64,000 nucleotides of DNA from Sphingomonadales bacterium (GTDB lineage Bacteria; Pseudomonadota; Alphaproteobacteria; Sphingomonadales; Sphingomonadaceae), in NCBI GenBank assembly GCA_025362295.1, contig JANYGX010000023.1:1-64000 (forward strand), in the 5' to 3' direction. The notes below the pieces were generated by a model. The model had not been told where the DNA came from and did no database searches. It saw nothing but the letters and a program-made list of their open reading frames with translations. The position numbers and the translations under genes were made by a program. Shown in pieces: positions 12,332 through 17,105 of this stretch. Every line of letters begins with the position of its first letter. Position 1 is the stretch's first letter.

Positions 12332-12949
12332 TTACCCGCGCACCAGATCCATGAATTTGCGTTCGTTTCGCTCCAGCTGAAACACGCCGGTGAACATAGT
12401 CGTGATGGTTGAAACATCGGGTTTGTGCACACCGCGCATGGTCATGCACTGGTGTTTGGCATCAATCAGGATGGCAACACCTTTGGGCTTCAGAACCTCC
12501 TGAATGGTGTTGACAATCTGGGCGGTCATGGTTTCCTGCGTTTGCAAGCGCTTTGCGAAAATATCGATCACCCGCGCCAACTTGGAAATGCCCACCACCC
12601 GCTTGTCAGGGAAATAGGCCAAGTGGCATTTGCCCAGAATTGGCACCATGTGATGCTCGCAGTGGCTTTCCAGAGTTATATCGCGGAGCATGACAATATC
12701 ATCGTAACCACCGACCTCTTCGAAGGTGCGTTGCAGCACTTCGCTTGGATCTTCATCATAACCCGCAAAAAACTCTTCATAAGATTTCACCACACGATGC
12801 GGCGTGTCCGTGAGGCCTTCACGGCTTGGGTTGTCTCCAGCCCAGCGAATCAAGGTGCGCACAGCCGCTTCGGCCTCTGCTCGGCTTGGGCGTTTTGATT
12901 CATGTGTTAAAATCATGGCATTGATGGCAGTAGGGGCAATGGCATCCAT
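12332..12949 (-). CDS. folE: GTP cyclohydrolase I
   Basis: FolE makes dihydroneopterin triphosphate from GTP, the first step to tetrahydrofolate and tetrahydrobiopterin. The protein is 205 residues. Zinc ligands and catalytic region are visible: Cys and His in ESHCEHHM and Cys in KHQCMTMRG; other blocks are [10 protein letters not shown] and GISKLARV. The N-terminal 20 residues are variable. The pterin product matters locally because phenylalanine hydroxylase (phhA, 17.2 kb) needs a tetrahydropterin cofactor. A perfect inverted repeat lies about 80-107 bases upstream of the start. Confidence 0.97.
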
Positions 12950-13720: not shown

Positions 13721-13800
13721 GGATGCTCTCCCTTGTGAGGTGAACCCATATTCTTACATCTGATTGATATCGGCATCTTCAACATATTTCAGAGGCAAGC

Positions 13801-16371
13801 ATGGACATCGAGAAATTCACCGACCGCGCCAAAGGCTTTCTGCAATCGGCTCAGACGGTAGCGCTGCGCAACAACCATCAGCGCGTTGAAGGCACACATT
13901 TGCTAAAAGCGTTGCTGGAAGATGAGGAGGGCATGTGCAGTGGCTTGATTAAGGCTGCCGGTGGCCGCCCAGACCAGGCCCATCAGGCTGTCGAACTGGC
14001 ATTGGCGAAGCTGCCGAAAGTCACGGGTGCGGGGTCGATGGGGTGGGACAATGATGCAGCACGCGTGCTTGATCAGGCGACCGAAGTCGCCAAAAAAGCT
14101 GGGGATAGTTATGTGACGGTTGAGCGGCTGTTGCTTGCGCTTACTTTGGCGCAAGGCACGGTGCCTGCAAAAATACTTGCCGATGCAGGGGTAACAGCCC
14201 TGGGCCTCAATAAGGCCATCAACGATATTCGCAAGGGCCGCAGCGCCGATACTGCCGGTGCCGAAGACCGTTTTGAAGCCCTGAAAAAATTTGCCCGCGA
14301 TCTTACTCAAGCAGCGCGCGACGGTAAGCTCGATCCAGTGATTGGCCGTGATGAGGAAATCAGGCGAACCATGCAGGTGCTTGCAAGGCGCAGCAAAAAC
14401 AACCCAGTGCTGATTGGCGAACCGGGGGTGGGCAAAACCGCAATCGCCGAAGGGCTTGCCTTGCGCATTGTCAATGGCGATGTGCCGGAGAGCCTGCGCC
14501 ACAAAAAGATTATGGCTCTTGATATGGGTGCGCTCATTGCCGGTGCCAAATAACGGGGTGAATTTGAGGAGCGGCTAAAGGGCGTGCTGGAGGAAGTGCG
14601 CGCTGCTGAAGGTGACATTATTCTGTTTATTGACGAGATGCACACGCTGGTCGGCGCTGGCAAGGCCGATGGCGCGATGGATGCCTCAAACTTGCTGAAG
14701 CCGGCACTGGCGCGCGGAGAATTGCATTGCATAGGGGCAACCACGCTCAGCGAATATCGCAAATATGTGGAAAAAGACGCAGCGCTTGAACGGCGCTTTC
14801 AGCCCGTTATGGTGAGTGAGCCAACCGTTGAAGATACGGTCTCTATTCTGCGTGGCCTGAAGGAAAAATATGAGGTGCATCACGGTATTCGCATCACTGA
14901 TGGCGCACTCGTGGCAGCGGCGACACTTTCCAACCGCTACATCACCGACAGGTTTTTGCCGGACAAGGCCATCGACCTGATGGACGAGGCCGCCTCGCGG
15001 CTGCGCATGGAAGTCGAAACCAAGCCGGAGGCAATCGAAAATCTCGACCGGCGCACTATCCAGTTTAAAATTGAACGTGAGGCGCTAAAAAAAGAAAGTG
15101 ATGCCGCCTCGAAAGACCGGCTGACCAAACTGGTGAGCGCCATTGATGCCCTGGAAATGGAATCCGCAAGCCTCACCAAGCGCTGGCAGGCGGAACGCGA
15201 AAAAATGCAGGGTGAAAAAGGCTTGCGCACAGAGCTTGAAGCAGCGCGCCTGGAGCTGGAGCAGGCACAACGGCGCGGCGATCTCGCGCGCGCTGGTGAG
15301 CTCACCTACGGGGTGATCCCGGAGCTGGAGAAGAAGCTGGAAGCCGCCGAACACACAGCCGCCGGTGCCATGCTGCGGGAAGAGGTGACACCAGAAGACA
15401 TTGCTGCTGTGGTCTCGCGCTGGACAGGTATTCCTGTTGATAAAATGCTGGAAGGCGAGCGTGAGAAACTGCTGGCGATGGAAGACGAATTGGGGCGGCG
15501 GGTGATAGGTCAACCAGAGGCTGTGGCAGCCGTCTCCGCTTCCGTGCGCCGTTCGCGTGCTGGCCTGCAAGATCCCAATCGGCCGCTGGGCTCGTTTCTG
15601 TTTCTGGGGCCCACTGGGGTTGGCAAAACCGAATTGTGCAAGGCGCTTGCTGACTTTTTGTTTGATGACCCAGCAGCGATGGTGCGCATCGATATGAGCG
15701 AATATATGGAGAAGCATTCGGTGGCGCGGTTGATTGGTGCGCCGCCCGGTTATGTCGGCTACGAGGAAGGCGGTGTCCTCACCGAAGCCGTGCGTCGCAG
15801 GCCCTATCAGGTGATCTTGTTTGATGAGGTGGAAAAAGCGCACAGCGATGTGTTCAATGTGCTGTTGCAAGTGCTCGATGATGGCAGGCTGACCGACGGG
15901 CAAGGTCGCAAGGCTGATTTCACCAACACCATTATCGTGCTCACGTCCAACATGGGCTCGCAGTTCATTGCGGCCTTGCCGGAAGGTCATGATGTTGCGG
16001 AAGTGCGCGGTGAGGTGATGGACGTGGTGCGCAGCCACTTCAGGCCTGAGTTCCTGAACCGGCTGGATGAGATTATTCTCTTTCACCGTCTGGGCGAAAA
16101 CAATATGAGCGCCATCGTCGATTTGCAGATCGTGCGTGTGATAAAGATGCTGGCTGATCGCAAAATAACCCTCACGCTCGACGATGCGGCGCGCGCCTGG
16201 CTTGCCCGTGTTGGCTATGATCCGGTTTACGGTGCGCGCCCGCTCAAGCGCGCTGTACAGAAATACCTGCAGGATCCACTGGCTGATTTGATTTTGCGCG
16301 GTGGGGTGAAAGATGGGCAAACTGTTGTCGTCAGTGATGGGGATGGGGCACTGAAGTTGGTTGTGCTCTAA
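13801..16371 (+). pseudogene. clpB: clpB, disaggregase gene interrupted by an in-frame TAA
   Basis: ClpB is the Hsp100 AAA+ disaggregase that works with DnaK. Taken across the stop, the frame would encode 856 residues, the family length, with every part present: N-domain repeats (1-140), NBD1 with Walker A GEPGVGKT at 206-213, coiled-coil middle domain (about 400-520), and NBD2 with GPTGVGKTE and GYVGYEEGG. Codon 251 is TAA (14551-14553), where the family has Tyr in [14 protein letters not shown]. The downstream frame has no other lesion. GAGGAG at 14566-14571 precedes a GTG at 14584 by 12 bases, so a second fragment could be translated after the stop. A recent nonsense mutation or a sequencing error (TAT/TAC to TAA) are the main explanations. 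Confidence 0.93.
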
Positions 16372-16373
16372 CG

Positions 16374-17105
16374 ATGGTAAGCTTTGCTCTTGATCCGACG
16401 CTGGATTCACAATCTCTCCATCACGTATTCAAAAACTTTGGCCGCATTCACATTCCGGGAATACTGACAGCCGCAAGCGCAGAAAAACTTTACCGTCATT
16501 TAGCAGAGAAAGCAGACTGGCACTTGTTATTCAACGTTGGTGAGCTGACCTATGACTTAACGCACACACAAATATCTGAGTTGTCAGTCGATAAACAGGC
16601 AGCCCTTATGCTGGCTGTCGAAGCTCGCGCGACAGATCATTTTCAATATATGTTCGAAAGTGTGAAGGTGCCGGACACCCCCTCCCCCTTCGCGGAAGAG
16701 GCGAGAACACAAACGGCGCTCACGGATTTTCACACATTCATGAACTCGCAACCTGTGCTCGATATTCTGCGCACTGTAACCGGCGATCCATCCATAACGT
16801 ACGCAGATGCGCAAGCGACAGCTTATGGTAAAGGTCATTTTCTCACCAAACATGATGACAATGTCACTGGCAAACATCGTCGAGTCGCCTATGTGCTTAA
16901 CCTGACGCCAAATTGGAATCCCGACTGGGGTGGCTTGTTACAATTTCTTGATAACGACGGCCATATAACGGAAGCTTACGCTCCAAAATATAACGCTCTC
17001 AATCTTTTTATTGTGCCGCAAGCGCACAGTGTAAGCTACGTTACACCGTTTGCCAAAGGCAAGCGATATGCCGTCACAGGGTGGTTGCGCGCAAAAATTC
17101 TATAA
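16374..17105 (+). CDS. 2-oxoglutarate/Fe(II)-dependent oxygenase (prolyl-hydroxylase-like)
   Basis: Cupin-fold dioxygenase of 243 residues. The iron-binding facial triad is visible: His and Asp in FLTKHDDNV and the distal His in VPQAHSVS, with Arg in RYAVTGWLR as the 2-oxoglutarate anchor. It belongs with the SM-20/EGL-9-like prolyl hydroxylase group by overall pattern (GGLLQFLD, NLFIVP). It begins two bases after the clpB stop codon and is probably cotranscribed. The substrate is unknown; ribosomal proteins or EF-Tu are targets of some relatives, but nothing here shows that. Its base composition appears lower in G+C than clpB. Confidence 0.82.
   Translation: MVSFALDPTLDSQSLHHVFKNFGRIHIPGILTAASAEKLYRHLAEKADWHLLFNVGELTYDLTHTQISELSVDKQAALMLAVEARATDHFQYMFESVKVPDTPSPFAEEARTQTALTDFHTFMNSQPVLDILRTVTGDPSITYADAQATAYGKGHFLTKHDDNVTGKHRRVAYVLNLTPNWNPDWGGLLQFLDNDGHITEAYAPKYNALNLFIVPQAHSVSYVTPFAKGKRYAVTGWLRAKIL

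Follow-up and report, generated by a model that had tools for sequence, protein, structure and literature searches.

The window, a 64,000-nucleotide stretch lying within contig C18 of a draft genome (2,587,644 bases in 37 contigs, rated 100% complete and 0% contaminated), carries a clpB gene on the forward strand (13801..16371, +), which was identified by frame reading, a genome search, and an NCBIfam match. The frame comprises 856 codons plus a stop, beginning with MDIEKFTD and ending with LKLVVL*. Translation of this interval bears out the starting observation of an earlier note on this DNA, as the frame is open except for exactly one internal stop, a TAA at codon 251 (14551..14553, +). The 5' open reading frame (13801..14553, +) encodes 250 amino acids that cover the N-terminal domain and NBD1 through and past its Walker A motif (residues 206-213), and the 3' remainder (14554..16371, +) is open to the normal stop and encodes the Walker B motif of NBD1 (276-279), the middle domain, and NBD2.

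Both pieces match TIGR03346, the ClpB equivalog model of NCBIfam. The 5' frame scores 307.8 bits, with residues 6-250 aligned to model positions 1-245, and the 3' frame scores 1029.4 bits over positions 257-851 of 853; each falls below the full-length cut-off of 1232.1, and jointly they span nearly the whole model. With the 3' frame also conserved, the sequence is intact on either side of the TAA, as had been claimed. The Walker motifs are preserved in NBD1 (GEPGVGKT at 206 and FIDEMH at 276) and in NBD2 (GPTGVGKT at 603 and LFDEVEK at 673), and the tyrosine of pore loop 2 is kept (GYVGYE at 650). The TAA nevertheless deprives the gene of two features by which we recognize a ClpB: no single unbroken frame encodes both AAA+ domains, and a stop codon stands where pore loop 1 should have an aromatic residue.

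The gene is single copy in the 2.59-Mb draft genome. A genome search recovered one other relative, on contig C23, for which ClpA is the highest-scoring NCBIfam model (the stretch tested scores 973.2 bits), and a second clpB or a ClpG/ClpK-like back-up was rejected on this basis. The genome also encodes one Hsp20 and a protein matching HSP70 over the whole model, which we name DnaK, both uninterrupted. Among named relatives, the window ClpB protein is best matched by a Sphingosinicella MAG (78%) and by Polymorphobacter glacialis (76%), so the gene is probably of Sphingomonadales origin. Downstream of clpB, a gene of the 2OG-Fe(II) oxygenase family (16374..17105, +) has its ATG 2 bases past the clpB stop. 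In the two nearest relatives, the 9-10 kb surrounding clpB contained neither this gene nor the PAP2 gene that lies upstream of clpB in the window.

A promoter-like element upstream of clpB

A promoter-like match, CTTG-N17-CTTACAT, lies upstream of clpB (13732..13759, +) and is presumably of the heat-shock (RpoH) type, going by the consensus. It fits a loosened pattern that, besides the window, 38 of 53 relatives show ahead of clpB, where a shuffled set of 54 would be expected to give 0.04 hits; the pattern had been loosened after viewing seven upstream regions that belong to seven of the same 53 relatives. A first, stricter regular expression with a fixed C matched the window and none of the 53. 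Two of the 38 matches are unusually far upstream (143-146 bases).

Many of the relatives L004-L032 and L163-L187 contain an inverted repeat in the spacer, TGTTGC-N6-GCAACA or sometimes TGTGGC-N6-GCCACA, whose arms pair at no fewer than five of six positions in 29 of the 38 relatives with the element. The window has kept the outer boxes but not the repeat (2 of 6 pairs). Repeat arms pair a little better with the partner they belong to than with shuffled partners, which is a weak signal: the observed mean was attained in 16 of 500 shuffles. In a strict form, the 28-base element is present in 10 of 40 genomes (L195-L204), with a single occurrence per genome that always lies directly upstream of a clpB start, and it is absent from the source genome; a control with the reversed pattern gave no hits. 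The element looks like a putative clpB-specific operator.

Pore-loop position and age of the lesion

Codon 251 aligns with the pore-loop-1 tyrosine of Escherichia coli ClpB, Y251, which is described in one study as the NBD1 pore-loop residue contacting substrate (PMC6546751). We surveyed this position in 111 records, consisting of 109 relative loci, the window, and locus L001, which is the same gene as that of the window. The loop motif was matched in 103 records, two of them the window gene itself, and the 8 of 109 relatives unmatched by the pattern were left out. Among the 101 relatives read, the residue is Tyr in 84, Phe in 17, and a stop in none. The alignment of codon 251 with the pore-loop residue, as the earlier note had it, therefore stands, whereas a strict tyrosine does not, and the position appears to be aromatic, important but not absolute.

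The emphasis that had been placed on this position adds little. The identity of the replaced residue is irrelevant because a stop removes everything downstream whichever residue is hit, and, in a second study, E. coli ClpB Y251A retains partial activity (PMC6593972). Besides codon 251, 97 codons of clpB are one substitution away from TAA. Landing on a notable residue is also unremarkable because six of nine comparable headline residues that we checked (K212, K250, E254, K609, Y651, and Y654) can reach TAA by a single substitution, the exceptions being E256, E279, and E676. The chance of a TAA at some notable residue of clpB is several per cent, which makes for a modest coincidence and not an extraordinary one.

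The window clpB carries five private changes at 384 columns that are otherwise invariant in a comparison with 48 relatives, a count that leaves out 6 of 54 loci missed by the start finder. Past the stop, there are four at 303 columns invariant in the 48 relatives (V363I, L422F, L448I, and V705A). By our reading, all of the changes are conservative, and the sequence past the stop appears free of decay. Five exceeds the median of one, although it is equaled or surpassed in three others among the 49 sequences; the raised count could reflect a longer branch, in a lineage without a near relative to shorten it. So few private changes, all conservative, led us to reject a long-standing pseudogene, and apart from codon 251, the gene resembles a functional clpB. 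Because the stop is isolated and the downstream sequence is intact and conserved, the lesion is either very recent or a consensus error.

Interruptions elsewhere in the genome and in the family

We scanned 453,862 sampled bases of the source genome for same-frame stops with coding-like sequence both before and after them, from which 40 were listed and the clpB TAA ranked first. Ten of the 39 others were read (ranks 2-9, 14, and 17). Nine of these have different Pfam families on their two sides and so mark neighboring genes, and the tenth (locus L158, stop at 12445) has no Pfam family on either side. Genome-wide searches, which report stops within the matched domain only, found none in 38 ABC_tran, 20 TonB-receptor, and 20 adh_short matches. 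With no other interruption confirmed in the sample and no stop in these 78 domain matches, stop-making consensus errors are not common in the source assembly.

Of the 148 other genomes in the family, 134 gave a clpB match that is full length and free of stops, 4 gave none at the threshold used, and 10 gave a partial one. Among the partial matches, seven reach a contig end by coordinate (confirmed against the contig extent for G164; by coordinate for the other six), the match in G034 is divided between two contigs, and the remaining two are broken internally. Nonsense clpB is thus rare in the family, yet broken copies do appear in assemblies. The internal breaks are a single frame change near codon 586 in G104 (L190) and, in G007 (L192), three such changes lying between codons 431 and 588 together with a reported TGA, a pattern that resembles sequencing error. 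A further genome, G080, has two full-length clpB copies, on its contigs C1 and C2, with 79% and 78% identity to the query.

Readings of the internal stop

The earlier note had also raised a split gene, in which the 3' part is translated from a GTG and is active alone or with the 5' fragment. The signals are present as it described them: GAGGAG (14566..14571, +) is followed 12 bases later by an in-frame GTG (14584..14586, +), Val codon 262, and the 3' frame is conserved and uninterrupted. However, GAGGAG and GTG occur together in 22 of 53 relatives whose clpB is unbroken (the motif was unmatched in one of 54 loci), whereas a dedicated second start should be absent from unsplit relatives. GAGGAG corresponds to two Glu codons of the conserved EFEERLK and does not appear credible as a dedicated ribosome-binding site; because the pair is common in unbroken relatives, the supposed second start looks like a by-product of the coding sequence. 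Twelve bases is a long spacing between a ribosome-binding site and a start. The break moreover parts Walker A from Walker B of one ATPase domain, a product from codon 262 would lack both the NBD1 Walker A and the pore loop, and none of the 134 full-length family matches shows such a split. We rejected the restart at 14584 on these grounds and consider a functional split highly unlikely. Reading through or recoding the TAA into full-length ClpB would likewise agree with a frame that stays open and conserved to its normal stop. Against this, TAA terminates 105 of 275 open (stop-to-stop) frames of 250 codons or more in the sampled bases, a count that includes the clpB TAA itself and may take in some non-genic frames, and TAA is on this evidence an ordinary stop in the source genome. 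None of the 36 tRNAs detected with RF00005, all of them typed, has the UUA anticodon of an ochre suppressor, in a census that is incomplete in that tRNA-Ile was not among them, and no other internal TAA of this kind was confirmed in the sampled DNA. Stop-codon usage and the detected tRNAs led us to discard readthrough or a code change, and there is very little chance that full-length ClpB is made in this way. A disaggregase gated at translation, with active ClpB built from two products translated separately or made by readthrough in pore loop 1, is equally far-fetched; even taken together, functional split and readthrough are improbable.

What is left is a choice between a real base and a wrong one, which correspond to the recent loss and the sequencing error also offered in the earlier note. 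We favor, with a probability of roughly one half (0.53), a normal alphaproteobacterial (Sphingomonadales-like) clpB whose single nonsense change arose very recently in the cells or population sequenced. This reading is supported by one internal stop in the sole clpB found, at a site that is aromatic in all 101 relatives read and in a gene that is full length in most of the family, by the lack of decay past the stop, by retention of the promoter-like match, and by the lack of any other confirmed interruption in the sample. Counting against it, nonsense clpB is rare, as G007 and G104 alone among the 148 other genomes are broken inside, and by frame changes; the private changes exceed the median; and the absence of a second lesion is equally predicted by a sequence error. 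A one-base consensus or assembly error, including strain mixing if this is a metagenome-assembled genome, would leave the real gene intact, and we regard it as a serious possibility at somewhat less than even odds. A single substitution suffices for it, in a gene that is otherwise clean and conserved and keeps its promoter-like match. Of about 7,700 possible substitutions in clpB, 223 create a stop, so that a few tens of errors in the coding sequence of a genome would be enough to yield one. The missing tRNA-Ile fits a draft or binned genome, as does the failure to find a 16S in the source assembly, a weak indication since the control for this search was positive in only 9 of 14 genomes. An error is disfavored by the lack of another confirmed interruption in the sampled bases and by the 78 uninterrupted domain matches, and by the rating of the assembly.

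If the nonsense change is real, as we infer, translation would produce a 250-residue fragment containing the N-terminal domain and the first part of NBD1. Such a fragment would presumably be unable to form the two-ring ATPase, making this a null allele, and aggregate clearance would then be left to DnaK and the small heat-shock protein without their ClpB partner. Expression of the oxygenase gene 2 bases downstream may also drop by polarity. A real loss would add one more bacterium whose sole ClpB has gone with no disaggregase of the same family in reserve and would help to probe when ClpB is dispensable, and an error would be a caution against drawing biology from the position of a single base. 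Neither outcome would be surprising. Literature searches led to the two pore-loop papers (PMC6546751 and PMC6593972), and among the titles listed in further searches none was on point.

We found nothing at this locus to suggest a split or recoded protein of a novel type, and the stop is an ordinary one. Like E. coli ClpB, the window clpB encodes an N-terminal domain, two AAA+ domains with Walker motifs, a middle domain, and pore loops; unlike it, NBD1 is cut by a TAA at codon 251, between Walker A and Walker B. In having a sole lesion with the rest of the gene intact and conserved, it resembles a recent nonsense pseudogene or a single-base assembly error, from which it differs solely in the conspicuous position of the stop.
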